A stretch of DNA of 34,721 nt from Trichococcus pasteurii. GTDB lineage: Bacteria; Bacillota; Bacilli; Lactobacillales; Aerococcaceae. How positions within the stretch are numbered: the stretch's first letter is position 1; the number at the start of each line of letters is the position of its first letter. The DNA is taken from assembly GCF_900112935.1 (NCBI RefSeq), contig NZ_FONM01000021.1, forward strand, positions 1 through 34,721, given 5' to 3'. The notes under the pieces were generated by a model. It did not search any database. It was not told the DNA's origin and saw only the letters and a list, made by a program, of their open reading frames with translations. Of this stretch, positions 3,725 to 30,889 are shown in pieces. The position numbers and the translations under genes were made by a program.

Positions 3725-3866
3725 TGTCGGAAATCGGAGAATACTGAATAGCCGACGCCTGTGCGATGTGTCGCCTGAACGAAGAGCGGAGAATACCGAA
3801 TAGCCGACGCCTGTGCGATGTGTCGCCTGAACGAAGAGCGGAGAATACTGAATAGCCGAGAGTAAG
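3725..3866 (+). repeat. 52-bp tandem repeat array, second locus
   Basis: The word GTCGCCTGAACG occurs at 3770 and 3822, exactly 52 bp apart, with partial units on both sides, so there are about 2.5 copies. Orientation is the same as the array at 2621-2885. These copies are nearly identical to each other and carry GCC in place of GAC in the core. The remainder of the gap between 3661 and 4031 holds only a small hairpin and the terminator of the PTS operon. Confidence 0.88.
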
Positions 3867-11249: not shown

Positions 11250-11420
11250 TTATCCTATAAACCAAATAATATAAGGGGAATATTTTGCTGGTGCTTTTGC
11301 GATTTGTTCTTGCTGAACATCCTTGTTGGATGAGTTGGCATCAGTAGCTATATCCTTTAAAATAAAACTATTAGTGACCAGAACGCCTAGGGCTATGGAC
11401 AAAACAATAAACTTTTTCAT
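11250..11420 (-). CDS. Candidate secreted pheromone precursor (56 aa)
   Basis: This gene encodes MKKFIVLSIALGVLVTNS..., a basic start followed by a hydrophobic segment (residues 4-20) typical of a Sec signal. A polar linker follows (about 22-46), and the protein ends in a hydrophobic tail YSPYIIWFIG. GAGG lies 8 nt before the ATG, and a TATAAT is at 11464-11469. It is divergent from an RRNPP-type regulator with 118 bp between starts. Precursors of RRNPP signals such as PapR have this build: export signal, linker, and a C-terminal hydrophobic 5-10-residue pheromone that is re-imported by an oligopeptide permease and binds the TPR domain. The exact mature peptide (for example the last 7-9 residues) is a guess. 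A small membrane toxin or bacteriocin-like peptide is the main alternative. Confidence 0.65.
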   Translation of the reverse strand: MKKFIVLSIALGVLVTNSFILKDIATDANSSNKDVQQEQIAKAPAKYSPYIIWFIG

Positions 11421-11463
11421 GACAGCAACCTCTTTTCTGGATAATATTTTTCTTATTAACTAC

Positions 11464-11508
11464 ATTATAAAGAAGAAAAATGCATTTTTTCCTAATTAGT
11501 CGTATAAT
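11464..11508. promoter_or_regulatory. Divergent promoters sharing one palindromic operator
   Basis: The minus-strand peptide gene has TATAAT at 11464-11469 and the plus-strand regulator has TATAAT at 11503-11508. Between them a perfect 14-bp palindrome AAAAATGCATTTTT (11476-11489) covers or abuts both -35 regions, and neither -35 resembles the consensus. This suits a regulator that must help polymerase at one or both promoters. Confidence 0.5.
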
Positions 11509-11538
11509 ACTATAAAAACGAGAAGGTGAAGCCAGAAA

Positions 11539-12444
11539 ATGAAAAAAGACTTCGGAGATGTTCTTAAAGAAATCAGGATTGATAGGGGGTATTCTCAACA
11601 TTATGTCGCAGAAGGCATTATGGGGCAATCAGCGTACTCAAAAATTGAGAGAAGTGAAATGGAACCTTCTTTTCGAAAATGGTTAGCCATCCTGGAGAAA
11701 CTGAATGTTTCAGTGGATGAGTTCCGCTACATTCTGAATACAAAAAATTTAACTACAAAAGAAAAGATAATAAATGAGTTTTTCGCGTTGAATTATAATC
11801 ATCTGGATGATTTGAGATTGTTTAAAGATGAGATAGTTGCTTTCCTAAAAGAAGAGGAAGATTATTTGTTGAAAGATATTTTCTATGCATGCGAAAGTTT
11901 AATCATTTTAAATACAACTCAAAATGTTGAGGAGGCACAATCCTTTGCAAAAAAAATTTGGGAGCGGTTGGAGAAATTTGATAGATGGTATTTATTGGAT
12001 ATCCGATTGATAAACACTATTTTGTTCATTTTTCCTGTCGATGTGGCGGTGCATATCGGTGAAAGAGCAACCAAACAATTAATCCCTTACAATAATCTGA
12101 AGGAAGCCGATATTCTATTAATCAATATAGAGGTCAATTTAGCTGTCCTATTGATTGATGAGCAAAAATATCCTGAAGCTCTTTCGTACCTGGAAAAAGT
12201 GATTCCTTTATGCAAGAAACATCAAAAATATAGTCAGCTAGCGATTGCATATGCCAGAAAAGGAATCATCCTACAAAAAACTGGGAAAATGGATGAAGGC
12301 TCCGAGCACATTGAGAAGGCATACTCTATATTAAATGCTATCGAAGATAGGAAATTAATAGATGATTTAGGAAAGGAGCTTTCGCATTATCTGAATAAGG
12401 GGTGCGAAGGTCCGCTACAGCTAGAAATTTTGCAGCAGGAATAG
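11539..12444 (+). CDS. RRNPP-family (Rgg/PlcR-like) HTH-TPR regulator
   Basis: This 301-residue protein has an N-terminal XRE-type helix-turn-helix (about residues 6-45; LKEIRIDRGYSQHYVAEGIMGQSAYSKIERSEMEPS). The linker ILEKLNVSVDEFRYIL is typical of Rgg/MutR and PlcR proteins. The remainder is all-helical TPR-like repeats, clearest at LSYLEKVIPLCKKHQKYSQLAIAYARKG and MDEGSEHIEKAYSIL. RRNPP regulators bind a re-imported peptide pheromone in the TPR groove and then change DNA binding. AAGGTGA lies 9 nt before the ATG. The divergent 56-codon gene is the obvious cognate signal. The direct targets beyond that gene are not visible in the window. The split between Rgg and PlcR subfamilies is uncertain. 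Confidence 0.83.
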   Translation: MKKDFGDVLKEIRIDRGYSQHYVAEGIMGQSAYSKIERSEMEPSFRKWLAILEKLNVSVDEFRYILNTKNLTTKEKIINEFFALNYNHLDDLRLFKDEIVAFLKEEEDYLLKDIFYACESLIILNTTQNVEEAQSFAKKIWERLEKFDRWYLLDIRLINTILFIFPVDVAVHIGERATKQLIPYNNLKEADILLINIEVNLAVLLIDEQKYPEALSYLEKVIPLCKKHQKYSQLAIAYARKGIILQKTGKMDEGSEHIEKAYSILNAIEDRKLIDDLGKELSHYLNKGCEGPLQLEILQQE

Positions 12445-12543: not shown

Positions 12544-12574
12544 GTGGTTTCCGGCATCTGTTGAGCAGATAGAC

Positions 12575-12985
12575 TGGCGGACTCTCGGGTGTTGTGGATA
12601 CCGTCCTGGGCGGGCGCCCGACAGAAGAGAGAACTGTCTGGTGTTTTGTGTTTTTCGGTAACGATTCAGCCGACAGCCTGTCGGACTCTCGGGTAAAAGA
12701 GATACCGTCCTGTGCAGATGCCCGACAGAAGAGCGAACTGTCAGGTGTTATGTGGTTTCCGGTATCAGGTTAGTCGACAGCTGCATGAAGTCTCGGGTAT
12801 CTGGGATACCGTCCTGAGCTGACGCCCGACAGAAGGGCGACCTGTCTGGTGTTTTGTGCTTTTCGGTATCAGATTAGTCGACAGCCTGTCGGACTCTCGG
12901 GTAACTGAGTCACCGTCCTGGGCTGACACCCGACAGAAGAGCAATCTGTCAGGTGTTTTATCATTTTCGGTATCTATTCAGTCGA
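12575..12985. repeat. 104-bp tandem repeat array, about four units
   Basis: The word GACTCTCGGGT (one diverged copy) starts at 12580, 12684, 12788 and 12892, a period of exactly 104 bp. Each unit contains GATACCGTCCTG, CCCGACAG and GGTATC words. CTGTCGG/CCGACAG and AGTCGACAG/CTGTCGGACT can pair as hairpins. The period is twice the 52 bp of the arrays near 2.6 and 3.8 kb, and GATACCG and AGTCGAC words are shared, so the families may be related. No gene is seen between 12445 and 13062. Confidence 0.88.
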
Positions 12986-13012
12986 CAAATACGCGCGCTA
13001 TCGATAAACGAT

Positions 13013-13721: not shown

Positions 13722-13769
13722 GAAAAGTACCGTACCGTTACGAATTCTTAATAATGAGAAAACGGCGCC

Positions 13770-14710
13770 GTTACCTCCGGTGAACGGGGCTCTCACCGGA
13801 GTTGCGGTTCCCGGCAATAGGTTTCCTCCTGTGAAGGAATGTTGGCCGGAGCAGGCAGATTTGTGGCACGCTCTTCTTCGGTGAGCGGATTCTTATCGGA
13901 ACTGCCGCACCTATCCAGCCGCCAGCTTCGGCGAAGGCAAGCTTTATAGGAGCTGGTGCTTTCCTCCGGGGAACGGGGCTCTCGCCGGAGTTGCGGTTTC
14001 CGGTAATAGTCCTTCTCCTGTGAAGGAATGTTGGCCGGAGCTGGGAGATTTACGGCACGCTCTTCTTCGGTGAACGGATCCTTATCGGAGCAGACGCACG
14101 CATACGGACATCAGCTCCGGCGAAGCCAATCCTTATCGGAGCTGATGCTTTCCTCCGGTGAACGGGGCTCTCACCGGAGTTGCGGTTCCCGGTAATAGTT
14201 TTCCTCCTGCAAGCGAATGTTAGCCGGAGCTAGGAGATTTACAGCACGCTCTTCTTCGGTGAGCGGATCCTTATCGGAGCTGCCGCACCTATCCAGCCGC
14301 TAGCTCCGGCGAAGGCAAGCTTTATAGGAGCTGCTGCTTACCTCCGGCGAAAGATCCGCTCACCGGAGTTGCGGTTGCCGGTAATGCATTTCCTCCTATG
14401 AAGGAATGTTGGCCGGAGCTGGCAGCGATGCGGCACGCTCTTCAACGGTGAGCAGGTCCTTATCGGAGCTGCCGAACGCTCAAGTGCACCAGCTCCGGCA
14501 AGCAGGGGCTTAACCGTAGGACAGGGTGAGGCGCCATTACCTCCGGCGAAAGGTTCGCTCGCCGGAGTAGCGGTTTCCGGTAATATCATTCCTCCTGTGA
14601 AGGAATGTTGGCCGGAGCTGGCAGATTTGTGGCACGCTCTTCATCGGTGAGCGCATCCTCGTCGGAGCTGACGCCCCCTCGCAAGCATCAGCTCCGGCGA
14701 AAGCCCCCCA
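13770..14710 (-). repeat. 189-bp tandem repeat array, five units
   Basis: The word CCTCCGG followed by the same unit starts at 13774, 13963, 14152, 14341 and 14540 (spacings 189, 189, 189, 199). Each unit contains several potential hairpins, for example CTCCGGTGA/TCACCGGAG with a 9-nt loop, and CATCAGCTCCG/CGGAGCTGATG at 14109-14147, where pairing is kept by wobble in other copies. It is assigned to the minus strand because related copies at 16.3, 18.5, 33.0 and 34.4 kb read in the opposite direction. The units contain no conserved start signal or gene. Confidence 0.93.
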
Positions 14711-16613: not shown

Positions 16614-16634
16614 TGCAACATTAGGAGGGATAGT

Positions 16635-17864
16635 ATGATTCATATATTGAGATCTGAAATTGAAGGACTTACTCTGTTCAAAGATAAGAAAGTCATATTT
16701 GATTTAGTGGCAGAAAAAAATGTCACTGAGGAAGATGTGGTAAACGGTAATGTGAAGCGCGTTGATGATTTGATTGATAAACTGAACACAATAGCTTTAG
16801 TAGGTTCCAACGCTACCGGAAAAACGACTCAGCTGAGACTGATCAAAATGGTGATTAGTATCTTTTTAGCGCTTGATAGCCTGAATGATTTCGAAAATCT
16901 CGCCGATCAATTTGAAGACACCTTTCGTTTTACCAACTATTTTTACAATGCAAAAACTCTTTATAAAGTTGAATCATCCGTCGAAAAGACAACGTCTGGG
17001 GATTTTGCTTTTACGGAAGAAACGATTTATTCAAAAAAAGTCTATCCAAGTCATAAAAAATCTGAACTGTTCAGTTTTGACCTGAAAAAAAGAGGTCAAC
17101 AGGAACTATTAAAACGCTCAAGTCTTCCTTCTGAAATGAAAGCTTTCCTGAGGGATGACGACACCATTTTTTCTACTGTTGTCAGAAAAATAATGAATAA
17201 TAAAGTTCAAGACATTGTCATCGACGAAATTGACATGACGAACAAAAATAAGTTGACGACGAAAGATACGATACCTGTGGAATACATCAAATATTTCGAT
17301 CCATCCATCGAGTCCATCCGGATACTGTCTAAAGACGCACCAAGCGAAAAAATGAATGTTGAAGTAACCTTCAAAAATGATTCCGCCATTCAAGTGCCCT
17401 TAATTGAACTGTCGAACTACCTTTCATCCGGAACAATTAAAGGGATCAATCTCTTTATCGATATCGAAAAGACGCTGAAGAATGGCGGCTATTTGATCAT
17501 TGATGAAATTGAGAACCATCTCCATAAATCCATTATTATGAATATCATTCAAATGTTTGCGAATGCTCTCAACAAAAACGGAGCCACTTTGATATTTTCC
17601 ACTCATTATAGTGAAATCATTGATATGGTTCCCAGAACAGATATGATTTATGTAGCGACGAAGGAAGGAAATTTGATTCAACTCAAAAAAATGTCGCAAG
17701 TTTTAGGCGATGAAGACCGAAACGATAAGAAGAAAAGCGAAGTGCTTTTGAGCGGGAAATTAGATAACACACCGACCTATAAGGATTTGAAACGCGTACG
17801 ATCAAAGCTTAGAAGTGCTATATCTGAACCATCATCGGGAAATGATGGTGGTGCAGGCGAATGA
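16635..17864 (+). CDS. AAA/ABC-type ATPase of a putative defence pair
   Basis: This 409-residue protein has a Walker A GSNATGKT (57-64), an ABC-like signature LSSGT (263-267), Walker B YLIIDEIEN with D290-E291, and a switch His in FSTHYSE (H324). This is the SMC/OLD-like AAA_15/AAA_21 group common in anti-phage modules. The start is the ATG at 16635, 6 nt after AGGAGG; 35 upstream codons in the same frame run into the repeat and promoter. It overlaps the next gene by 4 nt (ATGA), so the two products are probably made in fixed ratio. By analogy with ATPase-TOPRIM systems it would be the sensor/activator. The specific system is not identified. Confidence 0.8.
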   Translation: MIHILRSEIEGLTLFKDKKVIFDLVAEKNVTEEDVVNGNVKRVDDLIDKLNTIALVGSNATGKTTQLRLIKMVISIFLALDSLNDFENLADQFEDTFRFTNYFYNAKTLYKVESSVEKTTSGDFAFTEETIYSKKVYPSHKKSELFSFDLKKRGQQELLKRSSLPSEMKAFLRDDDTIFSTVVRKIMNNKVQDIVIDEIDMTNKNKLTTKDTIPVEYIKYFDPSIESIRILSKDAPSEKMNVEVTFKNDSAIQVPLIELSNYLSSGTIKGINLFIDIEKTLKNGGYLIIDEIENHLHKSIIMNIIQMFANALNKNGATLIFSTHYSEIIDMVPRTDMIYVATKEGNLIQLKKMSQVLGDEDRNDKKKSEVLLSGKLDNTPTYKDLKRVRSKLRSAISEPSSGNDGGAGE

Positions 17865-18418
17865 GTATTTCCTTTAATGAAGACATCGCATGTTTTGTCG
17901 AAGGCAGCAGCGAAAAGGCAATAATGGATTTGTTGATTGACAATGATTGTCTCGTTTTTACGAGGGATAACCTTGCGGATGAACAATTTTTATCGATGCA
18001 AGAACTAGCCAAAAAGAATATTGAATTATTTTCTCAGAGAATCTTAAGTCAAGTCAACCGGGATGACAAGATGGATATCATCATTGTGCAAGATCGAGAA
18101 ATTTGGCCTGGTTTTAAAGATATCTACCAAGAAAAAATCGGGAACATCTATATTGTTCAGACCAAACCCGAGATTGAGATGTTAATGATCCATGAGAGAG
18201 GCTTATTTTCCGAATACCAAAAAGTCAAAAGTAAACAAACACCAAAAGCATTTTTATCAAATGAATTAAAGTTGCCAGAGAAAACCATCACATCGTACAA
18301 GTATCTTCAGAATTACTTCACGCCAGATAGTCTAATACAAGCGATCCTGTCCCACAGCCAAGTTACACGGAACTCAAAAAATATCCTTCAATTACGAGAT
18401 CTTTTGAAGGAAGTTTGA
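17861..18418 (+). CDS. TOPRIM-like (RloB/AriB-like) putative effector nuclease
   Basis: This 185-residue protein has a TOPRIM-type opening, CFVEGSSEKAIMDLLI (E14, G15, E18), then a strand ending in an acidic pair, DIIIVQDRE (D78, E80), and a later IVQTKPEIEMLMIHERG, which resembles the conserved region after the acidic motif in RloB-like proteins. TOPRIM domains cut DNA or RNA with Mg2+. It overlaps the ATPase gene by 4 nt and lacks its own strong ribosome binding site, so it should be translationally coupled. ATPase plus TOPRIM pairs include PARIS (AriA/AriB) and AbiL-like systems; this pair looks analogous, but the protein is shorter and I cannot assign it. Function is inferred from motifs and context. 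Confidence 0.6.
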   Translation: MSISFNEDIACFVEGSSEKAIMDLLIDNDCLVFTRDNLADEQFLSMQELAKKNIELFSQRILSQVNRDDKMDIIIVQDREIWPGFKDIYQEKIGNIYIVQTKPEIEMLMIHERGLFSEYQKVKSKQTPKAFLSNELKLPEKTITSYKYLQNYFTPDSLIQAILSHSQVTRNSKNILQLRDLLKEV

Positions 18419-19500: not shown

Positions 19501-19728
19501 ATGCGTTCTTTTTGTTTTGTAAAACATAATAATTTTTTGGCAATGTGACAAAATACAATGGTATCATTAAATTGTGCAAGGTTATTTGGTTGAATAGTAA
19601 TGCAGTATTATCCTGAATTTAGCCTATTCGAAATAGTAAGTAATCATTTATAAGATCACTATGGGACAAACGTTTAAACTTCGATCAAATATAATTAAGT
19701 GAAATTTGATGGCTTGGAGGCTGGGGAA

Positions 19729-22700
19729 ATGATTTTTGATAAAATTACACCTGAAAAATTAGATAGTTGGAGTAAAGATAACAGTAGACGAGCGCAAGAA
19801 ATACTACCTGAACTTGTTGCCAGATTGGTGCTAAGTAGTTCAAATAAAATTAAGAATTTTCATTTTCCATATGGTAAAGGAATTCAATATCCGGGGTATG
19901 ATGGCTACTTGGTAGTTGATGAAGCTACCAATTTTTTTCCAATTGGAACTTCCGTATTTGAATTTGGGACAAACGGAGATATTCAAGGGAAATTTGATGA
20001 AGATATAAAAAAAAGATCTGAAAACTCTGATGGACTGGATATAGAAAAAACAGCGTTCATATTCGTATCATCAAAAATATGGAATCATCGAACTTCTATT
20101 CAGAAAAAAATAACCTGCACCGCTAAATTATATAATTGGAAAGAAATTAAAATAATCGATGCTCAAACATTGTGCATGTGGGTTGACAACCATCCGGGTG
20201 TTTCAGTTTGGTTGATGGAAACCATGAATGGTAGCATTCATGGTGTTTCAACAGCCGAAAAATTTTGGAATGAAAAGATCGGAAACACAAGCCCAACTTT
20301 GACATACCAATTTTTCACAAATAACAGAGATGCAGAAGTAAAAAAAATAGAGAAGTGGATTTCAAAAAATAGTAGAGGTTTTTTCTTTATCAAGGCTGAA
20401 TCAGCTATTGAAGCAACGTTTTTTTTAATAGCGGCAATGAATAGTTTTGACATAGACATTCTCCATAAAGTTATATTAGTTTCTGACAGCAAAACATGGG
20501 ATAAAGTTATTTCAATGCAAAACAAAGACATTATTTTAGTTCCTACTTTCTCAGTTGATGAGAATATTTCTTGCCCCGACTATGTCAATGCAATATTACC
20601 TATTAGTAAATTTACTCCGCTTGCTAACGTATCAGATAAGTTTGATGGCGTTGAAATATACAGGTTTAAGCATGATCAGTTTCAGAAATCTCTTTTAGAA
20701 TTAGGAGTTTCTTCGGATGCCATATTTAGTTTGGAAAAAGAAACGAAAAGGTGCTTTCTGCCTTTATATCGAAATTTATCGACAAATCCTATTATCAAAC
20801 AACCAGGATGGCTTTCAACGTTAGGTGGTGAAATTGATTATTTAATTCCCCTTATGTTACTCAATTATATAAACATAGAGTCAAAAGGAGACTTGACAAT
20901 ACTCAAAATGTTAACTGATTTATCAAGTGAAAATTTTCTATCAAAACTTGATGATTGGACAAGAATCGAAGATTTTCCAGTTGTGAATGCTGGGAAAGTC
21001 TATCGAGTAGTTTCAATTCAAGACATGTGGTTGTTTTTAGGAGATAAGATTAAAAGAAAAGATATTGAGAATTTACAAAAAGTAATAATGTTAATTTTTT
21101 CAGAAACAATACCAAAGTACGATCTGCCTAAAGAACAAAGATACATGGCGAATATCATTGATAAAAAGGATAGGTATTCAAAGCAACTTATAGAAGGCTT
21201 AATAATCTCTCTGATTTTCTTGAAAGAAAGAGACTCAAAATTTTTAGAGACTTCTATTGGATCAACGGATGCTTTTGTAACAGTCTTATTAAGAGATGTT
21301 ATAAACAATGTTATGACGGAAAAACAATGGCTCTCAATTGCAGAATTTTTCCCATTGATTACCGAAGCTTCCCCTGAGACGATAATTGATCGACTGAAAA
21401 AAGAAATGAACAATTCAGAAAGTGAGTTTTGGGAATTATTTAAGGTAGGAGGAAGTAATAGTATTTTCTCAGGAGATGTCTACCATCATATTCTTTGGGG
21501 AATAGAGAGATTGGTTTGGATCGAAGAATATGCTGTGGATGCAATATTAATACTAACTAGATTAGCCCACAAAAAATTACCATTGCCAAGTGGTAATACA
21601 CCGGATTCTAGTTTGAACCAAGTATTTTACTTTTATTTTCCGCAGACAGCATTAAACAAAGATGAATTAATAAGATTATTGGGTAAAATTATTCGAGAGT
21701 ATCCTCAGGTGGGGTTAAAGCTTGTGGAAAATATGAGTGGATCGAGAAATCATGCGTTATTGACTATGAGTAAACCTCAATGGATTGAGTTCAATGATCC
21801 TTATGAAGTAAGATCATTAACAAATGCAGTAATCAGGGATTATAGAGATAAAATTGTGAAAGTTTTTTTCAAAAATGTAAAAGTTGGTAAAGACAGCACT
21901 GTTTTAAAAATCATATTTGAGAACTTAGACTTTTTCTATTATGATAATGAATCAACAATAAAGAATTTAGTGAAAGAGAATATTGATGAAATTCCAAATG
22001 AGCAAAGAGCAATCTTGGCAACATGCATTAGAAAAACTATTTTTAAAAATAAAAAATATATTGATGCTGAGTGGTTATTGCCAACCGAAGTTATCAAGTT
22101 TCTAGAAGAAATATTAACTGAAGTTGAACCTAGCGGTGTGTTAAAATTTCTGTACTTATGTGAGTACTCTCCCCCAATTAATAATCCTATACCTTATTCA
22201 AACACAACAGATTTTGACATGGAAAAGGAGGATAAGAGTATACATGCTGAGAGGGAAATAGCAATCTCAGAAATATTTAGAAGTGGTGGAATAGATGTTA
22301 TATTAGATTATTGTAAGTATATTGAAGATTCTTTTGGATTTTCAAGGATAATCGCAGAGAAAGTTTTGGCAGGTAAATTTGACATAGATTTTTTGTTGAA
22401 AATATCTCGATTTAATCTGAATTTATTCAGAGGTATAATTTATTCACTAAATAAAAATGGTTTGGACCTCATGTTTGAAACGTTAAAGCGTGCTGAAAAC
22501 ATAGAATGGGAACAAGAAGCTGAAATATTGAGCCAAGCAGCACCTAGTATGATATTGTGGGTAGAATTAGAATCAAAAAGAAAAGACATACTAGAATATT
22601 ATTGGAGAAAATCACCAATAGTATCAGTAAGTCATTTCGATGAACAAGAGGCCGACTACTACTTATCAAAGTTGATAGAACATAGCCGTGTAATCGAAGC

Positions 22701-23520
22701 CATTAATTCAATTGCTTACTCAACGTATAATAATTATGAAATGCTTCTGTTTCTGTTACTATCATTAAAATTATATTTAGAAGACGAAAAAAATATTGCT
22801 CAACTTGATTACAATACAGTTGTTCCACATAATATTCAGAATATTTTTAAAAAAATCAATCAAAATAAGAATAAGGATGTCGAAATAATAGGTGCTTTAG
22901 AATTATATTTCAATGATATTTTATCGTATGATTTCTTTCCGCAATGCATAAATGAATGGATTGGTAGGGAACCGGAAGTATACGTTCAAATTATTGAACA
23001 TGCATCTTCCAATAACATGGCAGGTGAAAAAAATAGGGTTTCTTTTTATAGGATGCTAAACAAAATAACAACTATTCCTGGATGTAACAAAGAGAACATA
23101 GACAAAGAAACTTTTGATAATTGGGTAAAAAATGTTGTTTCTGTTGCACAAAGAAAAATGTATGTGAAAGAAACTTATTATAGTTTAGGAACACTGCTAA
23201 GTTACTCGCCAAATGGAGATGACGATATTTTTCCTCATCAAGTAATTAGAGATTTTTTTGAAGAGAATATGCATGATTCAAAAATATCTGAGTTCCTTGT
23301 ACCTAATTTTATTACTGGGAAAATTAACCAACAAGGTATGGTGGCGAATTGGGGTAGTGTAGAAGCTGCAGAAGAAAATATGGCCAATAAATATAATTGT
23401 GATGCAAACACGATTAGGATTGACTATCCTGAGACAGCATCAATTCTTAGACGCCTGAGAGATCACTATATCTGGAGTTCAAAAAATTTGATGGATACGG
23501 ATGAATGGTATTTTGATTAA
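19729..23520 (+). CDS. Giant uncharacterised protein with nuclease-like N-terminus
   Basis: This 1263-residue protein begins at the ATG at 19729, 8 nt after GGAGG; the in-frame GTG at 19699 has no such site. Residues about 20-165 resemble a PD-(D/E)xK nuclease module of large defence proteins: PGYDGYL (D58), GTSVFEFGT (E78), a lysine at 88, then TAFIFVSSKIW and IIDAQTLCMWV. Residues about 200-360 look like the position of a STAND-type NTPase, but the P-loop is not recognisable (FFFIKAESAIEATFFLIAAM has no GKT). The remaining 850 residues are predicted helical repeats with no transmembrane segment. The gene is AT-rich compared with its neighbours and monocistronic, with a strong terminator. 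I infer an anti-phage or nucleic-acid sensing role; the family is unnamed to me. Confidence 0.5.
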   Translation: MIFDKITPEKLDSWSKDNSRRAQEILPELVARLVLSSSNKIKNFHFPYGKGIQYPGYDGYLVVDEATNFFPIGTSVFEFGTNGDIQGKFDEDIKKRSENSDGLDIEKTAFIFVSSKIWNHRTSIQKKITCTAKLYNWKEIKIIDAQTLCMWVDNHPGVSVWLMETMNGSIHGVSTAEKFWNEKIGNTSPTLTYQFFTNNRDAEVKKIEKWISKNSRGFFFIKAESAIEATFFLIAAMNSFDIDILHKVILVSDSKTWDKVISMQNKDIILVPTFSVDENISCPDYVNAILPISKFTPLANVSDKFDGVEIYRFKHDQFQKSLLELGVSSDAIFSLEKETKRCFLPLYRNLSTNPIIKQPGWLSTLGGEIDYLIPLMLLNYINIESKGDLTILKMLTDLSSENFLSKLDDWTRIEDFPVVNAGKVYRVVSIQDMWLFLGDKIKRKDIENLQKVIMLIFSETIPKYDLPKEQRYMANIIDKKDRYSKQLIEGLIISLIFLKERDSKFLETSIGSTDAFVTVLLRDVINNVMTEKQWLSIAEFFPLITEASPETIIDRLKKEMNNSESEFWELFKVGGSNSIFSGDVYHHILWGIERLVWIEEYAVDAILILTRLAHKKLPLPSGNTPDSSLNQVFYFYFPQTALNKDELIRLLGKIIREYPQVGLKLVENMSGSRNHALLTMSKPQWIEFNDPYEVRSLTNAVIRDYRDKIVKVFFKNVKVGKDSTVLKIIFENLDFFYYDNESTIKNLVKENIDEIPNEQRAILATCIRKTIFKNKKYIDAEWLLPTEVIKFLEEILTEVEPSGVLKFLYLCEYSPPINNPIPYSNTTDFDMEKEDKSIHAEREIAISEIFRSGGIDVILDYCKYIEDSFGFSRIIAEKVLAGKFDIDFLLKISRFNLNLFRGIIYSLNKNGLDLMFETLKRAENIEWEQEAEILSQAAPSMILWVELESKRKDILEYYWRKSPIVSVSHFDEQEADYYLSKLIEHSRVIEAINSIAYSTYNNYEMLLFLLLSLKLYLEDEKNIAQLDYNTVVPHNIQNIFKKINQNKNKDVEIIGALELYFNDILSYDFFPQCINEWIGREPEVYVQIIEHASSNNMAGEKNRVSFYRMLNKITTIPGCNKENIDKETFDNWVKNVVSVAQRKMYVKETYYSLGTLLSYSPNGDDDIFPHQVIRDFFEENMHDSKISEFLVPNFITGKINQQGMVANWGSVEAAEENMANKYNCDANTIRIDYPETASILRRLRDHYIWSSKNLMDTDEWYFD

Positions 23521-27833: not shown

Positions 27834-28523
27834 TCATTCTGCTTTTTCCAAGAATGACTCTTCATAAATAGCATTGTTAATTATTTTCCGAACACTTTCC
27901 ATTAAATTTAAAACATCTTTTTCTAGACTTTCATAATCCGCCTCTTGTATTCCTAACTTTTGGGAACCATGAGAAATATTATTTCTGTAATTCAATAACT
28001 TATTAATGGTATGCTCTGAAATATCAATTTTATCGAGTGGGAATCCCAGGCGATAAAGCATTTTCTTTAATACAATTGGCTTTAAGTTTGATTCTGTATC
28101 AACAACATCTTCAGGAATTGCAACAATCTCAGTGAGAAAGTTCGTAAATTCATCTACAAAAGAAATTTGTCGAGAATACTTGTGTAATTTACTATCTTCT
28201 GGTAAAAGTTTTTTGAACCTAGGATCTTTTTTTGTTTCATTCCCATATTCTAAGAAAATATTATTAAGAGAAGACGTTCGAAGATACAAGTTTACACTTG
28301 ACCTTATTAGCTTTTCAGAATTAATTGCATCTACATAAATTTGAAAAGCTGATTTACAAAAACCTTCATAGTACGAATAAAGCATCACTATAAGGGATTT
28401 TCTGTATCTATCTTTATCAATTTCTTTATTAATTAAAGACAATTGATTTTTAAGAAAGTAAAGCTCATCAACTCGCCAAGTTAATTCTTCTTCAATTTGC
28501 CCAATAACATCAACTTTGTTCAT
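27834..28523 (-). CDS. MAE_28990/MAE_18760-type HEPN nuclease
   Basis: This 229-residue all-helical protein has the HEPN RNase signature R-x4-H as RNNISH (R180, H185), and the N-terminal helix SLIVMLYSYYEGFCKSAF typical of the MAE_28990/MAE_18760 subgroup. HEPN proteins of this kind are RNases used as toxic effectors. The ATG overlaps the end of the DUF262 gene by 14 nt and has its own AAAGGAG site. It is the last gene of a methylase-DUF262-HEPN operon. The specific target RNA is unknown. Confidence 0.78.
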   Translation of the reverse strand: MNKVDVIGQIEEELTWRVDELYFLKNQLSLINKEIDKDRYRKSLIVMLYSYYEGFCKSAFQIYVDAINSEKLIRSSVNLYLRTSSLNNIFLEYGNETKKDPRFKKLLPEDSKLHKYSRQISFVDEFTNFLTEIVAIPEDVVDTESNLKPIVLKKMLYRLGFPLDKIDISEHTINKLLNYRNNISHGSQKLGIQEADYESLEKDVLNLMESVRKIINNAIYEESFLEKAE

Positions 28524-29622
28524 AAAGCTCCTTTACCTTTGCTTCCACAAAACCAATCCTATCGGCTAAAGGTTTTCTGAAATTTTTTCCCCCACCTGTA
28601 GTAATTTTTTTAAATTCAGGGTTCTCCTTAACAGCTATAAAAGCTTCTCTAAGCCGTGTCATTTCTTCCGCATTATTTTCATTTATCAAATCGAGAAAAG
28701 GCTGAATACCTAGTGAAAAGGCCTCGAAATGATAAGCTGAAAATGCATTTGTAGGTTTGCTCGTTGTGGACAGACCTGCAAATACTTGTCCGCCCATTGC
28801 AAAATCCAAGATCGCAAAAGTTTTTCTAAAAGTAACTAATTCTAAGGATGTATCTAATTCGCCCGCTTTTAACTTTAAAGTTGCAGATTCCATATATTCA
28901 GTAAGGAAGTCACTTACGTCATGAACATATTCACTGATATTATTTTTAAATGCCAAAAATCTTAGTACCAATTCCTGATCATATTTTTCATTAACTTTGT
29001 TTTCCGAAAGATTCGAAATAGTGCTTTGAAAATGAATATCACTACTGAAATTAATCAACAAATCATTAAATCCTGAATCTAGTAACCTAATAGTGCTATT
29101 TCGTATTTCTTGATTGCTTAATGTTTCGCCACCTGTATTAAGTCGTTTAAACATATAGTATCTAAGACGAGGATCACTTTCTTTTCTCAAAATTTCTACT
29201 CGTATAAAATTACGTTTAAGTTTAATTTCAAGAGGCTTTGGCAAATCTTCATATTTTAAGCCGTTTAGAGCTTCTACAATATCACAATCCACTAATTCCA
29301 GTGACTCTCCAGTGACCAGTTCTCCTCGAAAATTTAAATATGATGAAATACGTTGTAACCCATCAATTAATTCGTAAACTCCTTCTTCTAATTCTATAAC
29401 AAAGATAGGAGGAATAGGCAACTCTAATAACAACGACTCTATGAAACGGGATTGTTTTCCTACAGACCATCTAAACAACCGTTGATATTCTGGATCTATA
29501 ATCAATTCTTTATCCATATACATATCCAGTAACTCATTAAATGATAAATCTAAAGACCTTGTTCTTATTGTATTAATTTTTTCTTCGACAGCTTTTATTA
29601 AATCAATTCCTTCTATTGTCAT
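28510..29622 (-). CDS. DUF262 (GmrSD N-terminal/ParB-like) protein
   Basis: This 370-residue protein has an N-terminal DUF262 domain, with IDPEYQRLFRWSVGKQSRFIESLLLELPIPPIF and the hallmark DGLQR (87-91; usually DGQQR). In GmrSD type IV restriction and related systems, DUF262 is a ParB/sulfiredoxin-like NTPase-nuclease module. The remainder is helical without an HNH domain, so any nuclease partner must be separate; the HEPN gene downstream is a candidate. The start at 29622 uses the GGAG that lies inside the alternative upstream frame, 4 nt after the methylase stop. Confidence 0.82.
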   Translation of the reverse strand: MTIEGIDLIKAVEEKINTIRTRSLDLSFNELLDMYMDKELIIDPEYQRLFRWSVGKQSRFIESLLLELPIPPIFVIELEEGVYELIDGLQRISSYLNFRGELVTGESLELVDCDIVEALNGLKYEDLPKPLEIKLKRNFIRVEILRKESDPRLRYYMFKRLNTGGETLSNQEIRNSTIRLLDSGFNDLLINFSSDIHFQSTISNLSENKVNEKYDQELVLRFLAFKNNISEYVHDVSDFLTEYMESATLKLKAGELDTSLELVTFRKTFAILDFAMGGQVFAGLSTTSKPTNAFSAYHFEAFSLGIQPFLDLINENNAEEMTRLREAFIAVKENPEFKKITTGGGKNFRKPLADRIGFVEAKVKELYEQS

Positions 29623-29626
29623 TTCA

Positions 29627-30889
29627 TTATCTCCTTTCAAATATCAGTACAGTTTCAGTTGGGTTCGAAATAGTTCTATAATTTTTAGTTTTATTGTTAA
29701 TGGTTACCATCGTTTGCTTCTTCTCAAATGATTGCTTCAAGGTAGCTGACCAGCCATACTTATCAAATATTTCTTCAAAAACCACGGCTATATCTAAGTG
29801 GATATCTTTATAAAATGAATCCTGAACAACAATTATAATTTTGCTATTTTGTTTGCTCACCCGATTTAGTTCAGATATTGACATTGAAATACCATCAAAG
29901 TATTGAGAAAATTGCTTATAGTAGTAAGTTTTAGAAGCTTTAGATGCGTGATTGTAAACATTACTCATAAATGTTTGAGCAGTATTACTGAAATAGAAGG
30001 GCTGTTCTGATGAATTTTTTATTATTTTTGTTGTTCCAATCATCTCTTTTCTTAGTTCTTCAAAATCATTATCATTAGAAAAACCTAGTATAGCAAGCTC
30101 GACTCTCGTTGCAACTGCATAATCAATTCTTGTGCAATATGGTGGGGAAGTGATTGTTAGATCTACTGAGTTATCATCTAAAGGAATCTTTCTTGAATCC
30201 TGTGTCTTTAAAATAATATTTTGTGATATATTTTTTTTTCGCTTACTTAAAACGGTTTTTTTGCTTTGTAGCTCTTCCAAAAAAAGTTTTTCAAACTTTT
30301 TATGTGATATTTTTACTTTTTCTTCTTGGTTTTTTGCGACTTTTATCCATGTGGGATTTGAAGTATTGAACTTCTTTGTTAGTCTTTTGACAGTTTCAAA
30401 TAAAGCAAGGTAATAAAAAGCAGTAAGTCTATTTTTCACTACTAATTCTTTTTTTAGTAATAAAAACTTATGCGGTTCGCTTGTTTCATCTAAAAGGTTT
30501 GTCATAATTTCCAATTCTACATTTCTAATATTTCTAACGGATGTCTTAGTAAACCAAGCTTCCAAGGGATCTTCTTTGATATCATGATTTCTCAAATTTT
30601 GTATCGAGTTTAGTTCGATATTTTTAAATTCATTAATACTTAACAATTCTGCAGCAGCGATAACATTCATAACAGGATTTATATCAAATCCATAAACTTC
30701 TTTAGCTCCTAATTGGCCTGCTATCTTGCTAGTAGTTCCGCTCCCATTCCATGGATCCATAATAGTCAATTCGCTTATTTTATAGCCTTTTAACATATCT
30801 AAAACAAATTGTACTGAAAAACCAGCGTAGTATTTATAGAGCAAAGAAATATCATGTGGATTGTATTTTGGGTTCGTTATATTATTCAT
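29627..30889 (-). CDS. DNA methyltransferase with TSPPY motif
   Basis: This 420-residue protein carries AdoMet motif I, DPWNGSGTT (45-53), and GFDINP (68-73), and later the catalytic motif IV TSPPY (247-251), the type used by N4-cytosine and some N6-adenine methylases. About 170 residues lie between the motifs. Motif I precedes motif IV. It is the first gene of a three-gene operon with a short 4-bp gap to the DUF262 gene. In this setting it could mark self DNA while DUF262 and HEPN proteins form the restricting or toxic arm; that assignment is an inference. The specificity cannot be read from the sequence. Confidence 0.85.
   Translation of the reverse strand: MNNITNPKYNPHDISLLYKYYAGFSVQFVLDMLKGYKISELTIMDPWNGSGTTSKIAGQLGAKEVYGFDINPVMNVIAAAELLSINEFKNIELNSIQNLRNHDIKEDPLEAWFTKTSVRNIRNVELEIMTNLLDETSEPHKFLLLKKELVVKNRLTAFYYLALFETVKRLTKKFNTSNPTWIKVAKNQEEKVKISHKKFEKLFLEELQSKKTVLSKRKKNISQNIILKTQDSRKIPLDDNSVDLTITSPPYCTRIDYAVATRVELAILGFSNDNDFEELRKEMIGTTKIIKNSSEQPFYFSNTAQTFMSNVYNHASKASKTYYYKQFSQYFDGISMSISELNRVSKQNSKIIIVVQDSFYKDIHLDIAVVFEEIFDKYGWSATLKQSFEKKQTMVTINNKTKNYRTISNPTETVLIFERR

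Follow-up and report, generated by a model that had tools for sequence, protein, structure and literature searches.

A divergent Rgg-type regulator and small peptide gene in Trichococcus: a probable quorum-sensing pair with its own pheromone code

A regulator and a divergent small gene

We analysed a stretch of 34,721 nucleotides from Trichococcus pasteurii, referred to here as the window. A preliminary description of this DNA had proposed that it carries a compact peptide signalling switch, made up of an HTH-TPR regulator and a divergent 56-codon gene for its pheromone. The genes concerned are as follows.

11539..12444, plus strand: RRNPP/Rgg-type receptor and transcription factor, 301 aa, assigned by Pfam, NCBIfam and fold
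Regulator domains: XRE-type helix-turn-helix (HTH) at the N-terminus (residues 9-62) and TPR domain at the C-terminus
11250..11420, minus strand: predicted gene for the pheromone precursor, 56 codons and a stop, found in 11 of the 13 Trichococcus genomes
11253..11279, minus strand: probable pheromone SPYIIWFIG, the last nine codons (exact ends estimated), with the lowest pN and the recurring W-[FL]-x-G core
11429..11432, minus strand: GAGG, likely ribosome binding site of the peptide gene, from sequence

The regulator scored above the Pfam cut-offs for HTH_3, Rgg_C (52.5 bits, cut-off 27) and TPR_12, and matched the NCBIfam model TIGR01716 at 46.6 bits (cut-off 36.9), which confirmed the frame and its two-part architecture as first described. 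Its score against the Pfam model RNPP_C was 19.7 bits, below the cut-off of 26.5. The closest solved structures by sequence were Lmo0325 (E 3.8e-10) and Rgg2. A structure model made from a 16-sequence alignment was all-helical, with the TPR part mostly above pLDDT 80 and the HTH part near 45; in a Foldseek search with this model, Lmo0325, PlcR (3u3w) and Rgg2 ranked at the top and NrpR, ComR and PrgX followed closely. Taken together, these family and fold matches identify the regulator as an HTH protein with an Rgg-type TPR receptor. The earlier assignment to the broad class of PlcR-PapR, Rgg-SHP and ComR-ComS thus holds for an HTH-TPR receptor with a peptide gene, and is narrowed by the Rgg-type scores of the receptor.

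Orthologues of the regulator were present in 11 of the 13 Trichococcus genomes, at 75-84% identity besides the window's own copy, and the frame was open in all 11 (286-301 aa). Orthologues at 76-83% identity belong to T. ilyis, T. alkaliphilus, T. paludicola, T. collinsii, T. palustris and T. patagoniensis. The small gene was found in the same 11 genomes, always divergent and 111-118 bp away from the regulator; neither gene was found in the other two genomes of the set, G011 (99% complete) and G008 (51% complete). The peptide gene was intact in ten of the 11 genomes, and the frame can therefore be regarded as unbroken in close relatives with a single exception, G006 (L010), in which foreign sequence near the 3' end replaces the last residues while the regulator is retained. 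A metagenome contig (L063) carries an intact peptide with one difference from that of G006 over the first 50 residues. This contig, labelled as a Paludibacteraceae MAG, and a second one labelled Sedimentibacter sp. SX930 (L062) hold the Trichococcus pair at 77% identity, and both labels are probably wrong.

The ten intact copies of the peptide gene contained no stop in frame 0 and 3-10 stops in each of the other two frames. The pN/pS ratio was 0.42 for the peptide gene versus 0.18 for the regulator, and pN reached its minimum in the last 11 codons of the precursor (46-56). The C-terminus YSPYIIWFIG, read correctly in the preliminary description along with the limits of the frame, varies among the ten intact peptides within the consensus KY[ST][PT][NY][IM][IL]W[FL][IM][GN]. 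The N-terminus is signal-like, and the precursor matched no Pfam or NCBIfam model. Could this be a chance open frame beside an orphan Rgg regulator? Its small size would fit such an origin and nothing else does, whereas the frame and its C-terminus are conserved and the motif recurs in other genera, so that chance is hardly a credible explanation. Judged by this conservation, the small frame is a genuine gene.

Promoters and a candidate operator

The intergenic region contains two divergent promoters and two palindromic elements.

11464..11469, minus strand: TATAAT, -10 of the peptide promoter, from sequence
11487-11492, minus strand: GGAAAA, the poor -35 window of the peptide promoter, from sequence
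11476..11489: perfect 14-bp palindrome AAAAATGCATTTTT, in the promoter, not kept as a palindrome in orthologues
11497..11512: candidate operator TAGTCGTATAATACTA, reading TAGTATTATACGACTA on the peptide strand, with dyad symmetry at 6 of 8 positions and conserved spacing
11503..11508, plus strand: TATAAT, -10 of the regulator promoter, within the operator, from sequence

The ribosome binding site and TATAAT box that had been attributed to the small gene are thus in place. The preliminary description had further set the 14-bp palindrome on the -35 regions of both promoters. The palindrome is indeed perfect and spans the -35 window of the regulator (11480-11485, ATGCAT, placed assuming a 17-bp spacer), but it touches just three bases of the peptide -35 window, and just one of the 11 orthologues has a perfect 14-mer at this position (ten rows computed, that of G009 read by eye). 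We dropped it as an operator candidate for this reason, the adjacent TAGT-N8-ACTA core being conserved together with its spacing; the AAAAATGCATTTTT palindrome is probably not the operator.

The retained candidate, TAGTCGTATAATACTA, was exact in 9 of the 11 Trichococcus orthologues and had one mismatch each in G003 and G006. It lies exactly 27 bp from the -10 of the peptide gene in the window, and the same operator-to-TATAAT spacing was observed at all 11 Trichococcus peptide promoters. Searched for without the spacing, the 16-mer was not enriched: at two mismatches or fewer it gave 38 matches versus 59 for the reversed control across the 13 genomes, and 3 versus 3 in the window's own genome. 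We also searched with a spaced pattern (TAGT-N2-TAT-N3-ACTA, 25-29 bp, TATAAT), which was designed after the sites in the window and at flgB had been seen. It returned 15 matches in 10 of the 13 genomes, and none for the reversed control. Ten of the matches were at peptide promoters and five preceded flgB; the spacing was always 27 bp, although the pattern allowed 25-29 bp. These counts indicate that the specificity of the operator comes from the 27-bp spacing, the core alone being not rare.

The poor -35 window of the peptide promoter suggests that it depends on an activator. The opposite sign is conceivable, with the regulator repressing both the peptide promoter and those of its targets until the peptide relieves this repression, as in Rgg3 or PrgX; repressors do exist in the RRNPP superfamily, and the operator overlaps the -10 of the regulator itself, where binding would repress. 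However, at the peptide promoter and at the other spaced sites the core ends 27 bp upstream of the -10, beside the would-be -35, and the -35 window of the peptide promoter is poor (GGAAAA), which is a common layout for activation. We consider a repressor unlikely, and favour activation of the peptide promoter by the peptide-bound regulator.

Related pairs and known signalling systems

The preliminary description had called for a search for the same divergent pair in related genomes. In Jeotgalibaca, a genus of the same family (our group g12, named from locus L046, whose sequence is the same as that of J. caeni L065 across 3858 bp), a regulator 38-46% identical was present in 5 of 6 genomes; in G082 none was found at E 1e-40. 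Each of the five regulators has a divergent small gene of 42-47 codons, and the products end in DIWLIGGW (two genomes), DAWLIGGV, DVWLIGGL or DVWLIGGE (the last from a TTG start), giving the motif D[IVA]WLIGG. In a sample of 395 genomes of the order, 87 had regulators at E 1e-45 or better. We inspected 14 of the best loci outside Trichococcus and Jeotgalibaca for peptides, nine of family f2 and five of family f6. A divergent peptide was found in all nine f2 loci (for example, MKKVLKKLIAFLPVIWFIGGGG), 22-26 aa long from the likely ATG and ending in [IL]WF[IVM]GG or with more Gly. Two of the five f6 loci held a peptide, ending in IWLIGT or IWLIGTGPT, and the other three held no such peptide. The W-[FL]-x-G core recurs in peptides beside related regulators, and what the Trichococcus peptide has in common with those next to more distant regulators is the C-terminus, which the preliminary description took for the signal.

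In a tree of 42 regulators, the four peptide-bearing groups were each recovered as a single group, and regulators without such a peptide fell between them. The Trichococcus and Jeotgalibaca regulators came together with support of 96/91, along with one long-branched row without a peptide; the deeper joins are uncertain because of long branches. Besides this regulator, a second Rgg-type regulator, 34-36% identical, occurs in 10 of the 13 Trichococcus genomes (L055, at G000:C19:18964-19785, L014 and L047-L054). No recognisable divergent peptide was found upstream of it in three of these ten copies (L014, L047 and L055), nor in L056.

These comparisons bear on whether the peptide is a ligand at all. 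The product of the small gene might be secreted and hydrophobic but of a different kind (bacteriocin-like or membrane-active), and be under the control of the Rgg-type regulator without being read by it. Rgg-type regulators are known to control effector genes as well, and a signal-like N-terminus would suit such a product. Across genera, however, similarity is confined to the last 6-8 residues; precursor length varies from 22 to 56 aa, and the middle part is changed or missing. This pattern fits a ligand read by related receptors, and the grouping of peptide-bearing receptors in the tree points the same way. We regard a non-ligand role as very unlikely, and take the C-terminus to be the probable signal.

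Among known systems, the pair resembles the streptococcal Rgg/SHP circuits (Rgg2/Rgg3 with SHP2/SHP3) in several respects. The Trichococcus receptor passes the cut-offs of the Rgg C-terminal families; the small gene is divergent and its product has a basic start, a hydrophobic stretch and a hydrophobic, mostly Gly-ending C-terminus; and a conserved element, the candidate operator, lies upstream of the peptide promoter. SHP precursors are short, about 20-25 aa, their mature signal begins with Asp or Glu, and the signals are exported by PptAB and imported by Opp/Ami. The f2 peptides look like such precursors. The differences are a Trp-containing core in Trichococcus and related peptides, precursors of 42-56 aa in Jeotgalibaca and Trichococcus (with no Pfam or NCBIfam match for that of the window), a palindromic element of their own and a possible flagellar target. 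An Asp precedes the core in Jeotgalibaca but not in Trichococcus or f2.

PlcR-PapR shares the HTH-TPR receptor and the fold match noted above, and the PapR precursor, of about 50 aa, is likewise secreted and carries the signal at its C-terminus. However, the PapR gene lies downstream of PlcR on the same strand, whereas the Trichococcus peptide gene is divergent, and the PlcR chain matches the regulator only weakly by sequence (E 0.0017). ComR-ComS has an HTH-TPR receptor and a Trp in its signal, the double-Trp peptide XIP that controls competence, but ComR chains match the Trichococcus regulator at E ~0.2 only. RopB/LCP systems also combine Rgg-family receptors with peptide genes that are divergent in several cases, and a 2023 paper reports LCP pairs in Carnobacteriaceae, the LCPs being mostly 8-10 aa long and leaderless (PMC10518010); in contrast, the peptides of Trichococcus, Jeotgalibaca, f2 and f6 have leaders of roughly 14-48 residues. 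Lmo0325 of Listeria (PDB 4ryk) is the best match to the regulator by both sequence and fold, though the two are just 21% identical in the fold alignment. On these similarities, we place the pair in the Rgg/SHP-like kind with a signal code of its own, its 56-aa precursor departing from the SHP form.

The pair or its peptides were not described in the literature found; supplements and figures were outside this search, so that the pair may sit in a published list. The main texts of PMC11343458, PMC10075063, PMC9765709, PMC12700828, PMC10518010, PMC10626739 and PMC13361665, as far as available, do not name Trichococcus or Jeotgalibaca. In the accessible part of PMC10626739, Carnobacterium appears in a table row for RRNPP peptide synthases, with no sequences given there, and the large RRNPP survey PMC10075063 places its pairs in supplements and mentions, in the text available, two Carnobacteriaceae gene clusters in another context. 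The literature matches listed for Trichococcus motility included nothing useful.

Candidate targets and the proposed circuit

The five flgB-upstream copies of the operator-27-TATAAT module are in G000, G003, G004, G007 and G012, and these are the genomes whose flgB genes are at least 90% identical. The laboratory strain T. collinsii DSM 14526 carries both the pair and a site upstream of flgB. In G010 (T. palustris) flgB is distant (66%), and no core was found at four mismatches or fewer in the surrounding 10 kb. The flgB product of G000 passes the FlgB cut-off, and the gene heads a run of same-strand frames. The flgB start lies ~250-760 bp downstream of the operator-bearing promoter, and the leader contains a long hairpin in four of the five genomes (L070, L073, L081 and L093; absent in L094), followed by a T run in three, as judged by comparing the leaders by eye. 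In G000, the one genome folded, the hairpin has a stem of ~29 bp and -49 kcal/mol (first 150 nt; L070, left of 1501); it could be a terminator, an attenuator or a small RNA. Because of this hairpin and the distance to flgB, the promoter may drive a short RNA or an attenuated transcript, and the link between the module and flgB expression is uncertain. No conserved second pheromone gene was found in the flgB leader.

The five Jeotgalibaca peptide promoters carry a counterpart of the operator, AAATA[GT]TC-N6-GA[AC]TATTT, with 9-11 of 11 dyad positions, and it too lies 27 bp from TATAAT at all five. Allowing one mismatch or fewer, the 22-mer had 19 sites, or 31 strand-wise matches versus 14 for the reversed control; counted on both strands, G023 (7 versus 8) and G082 (1 versus 4) were not above control. 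A TANANT box at 27 bp accompanied 11 of the 19 sites, 5 at peptide genes and 6 elsewhere, of which four were in G080. Of these six, L148 stands before a transposase-like frame. Downstream of the other five are genes with products that, by eye, look secreted or anchored in the membrane and that matched no family above cut-off; two of them, from different species (L154 and L158), resemble each other. G082, the sole Jeotgalibaca genome without the regulator, held no spaced site. With the module at flgB in Trichococcus and a related one before these genes in Jeotgalibaca, a candidate regulon can be read from genomes.

The module might instead belong to another DNA-binding protein acting at the same promoters. 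A class D sortase gene is preceded by a similar palindrome, from which TATAAT is either 33 bp away or missing within range, and a degenerate form of the palindrome, TAGTCCTTTAAGACTA, persists in G011, which has neither regulator nor peptide. However, the 27-bp sites follow the regulator: in Trichococcus they were exact in 10 of the 11 genomes with it, present with one mismatch in the eleventh (G006) and absent from both genomes without it, and in Jeotgalibaca they occurred in 5 of 5 genomes with the regulator and 0 of 1 without. Another protein is accordingly judged distinctly unlikely, and we assign the sites tentatively to the Rgg-type regulator.

As to the sortase locus itself, a TAGTC-N6-GACTA core within a longer palindrome lies ~140-170 bp upstream of the class D sortase gene in six Trichococcus genomes (L071, L084, L087, L089, L092 and L095); L136 and L133 are further loci of this palindrome. 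In G002 the core stands before a truncated sortase copy, and in G009 (T. ilyis; L086, 1501-2065) the palindrome precedes a secreted-looking protein of 137 aa without a family. We dropped the sortase gene as a target: TATAAT was at 33 bp in 3 of the 6 genomes and at 27 bp in none, other sortase copies lack the core, and G011, which has no copy of the pair, retains a form of it.

The sequences themselves show the pair and its conservation, the C-terminus of the peptide, the operator at its fixed distance and the further sites; secretion, processing, import, binding, activation and a flagellar outcome are inferred. The 56-aa precursor would be secreted and trimmed to a hydrophobic C-terminal pheromone, approximately SPYIIWFIG or a shorter peptide containing IIWFIG, which would be re-imported through an oligopeptide permease and bind the TPR groove of the divergent regulator. 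At each target promoter, a dimer of the regulator would occupy the TAGT-N8-ACTA element that precedes the -10 by 27 bp. With peptide bound, it would recruit RNA polymerase to the peptide gene, which lacks a good -35, and so create positive feedback; in flagellated species it would also recruit RNA polymerase to a second promoter, upstream of flgB. As the operator covers the -10 of the regulator gene, occupancy should limit regulator synthesis. The genome of the window encodes an EcsB-family protein (352 bits) and four SBP_bac_5 oligopeptide-binding proteins as export and import candidates, both types being common. Overall, we estimate a probability of about 0.83 that the locus is an autoinducing Rgg/SHP-class peptide quorum-sensing circuit that uses a pheromone code of its own and perhaps extends to flagella.

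A wider reading, offered tentatively and at somewhat less than even odds, is that a Trp-Gly pheromone family with the core W-[FL]-x-G spans several Lactobacillales families, that its precursor has changed between an SHP form of 22-26 aa and a form of 39-56 aa with leader and spacer, and that in Trichococcus a copied promoter-operator module couples cell density directly to the flagellar cluster. An active module upstream of flgB would tie flagella to an Rgg-class peptide pheromone. The data suggest an undescribed way for environmental bacteria, here Trichococcus, to count their neighbours. Trichococcus and Jeotgalibaca would thereby gain a testable quorum-sensing system in which the signal sequence, receptor, operator and candidate targets are named, and the rule of an operator followed at 27 bp by TANANT lets candidate targets be found in genomes. 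The two precursor forms among related receptors should also be useful for studying the evolution of pheromone export routes.

Elsewhere in the window, one tRNA was the sole match at Rfam gathering scores, and a 1273-aa protein (19699-23520) had no Pfam or PADLOC match at E 0.001. Repeat arrays with units of ~52, 104 and 189 bp occupy 12574-12987, 2631-2872, 3735-3859 and 13765-14701, and related repeat sequence also adjoins the regulator in G001 (L003). At 16629-18418, an AAA ATPase that scores as AbiLi- and AriA-like precedes a 185-aa protein with no family; together they are possibly a two-gene phage defence module. On the minus strand at 27834-30889, a DNA methylase, a GmrSD_N (NsnA-like) protein and a HEPN protein are encoded consecutively and may form a restriction or defence cluster.
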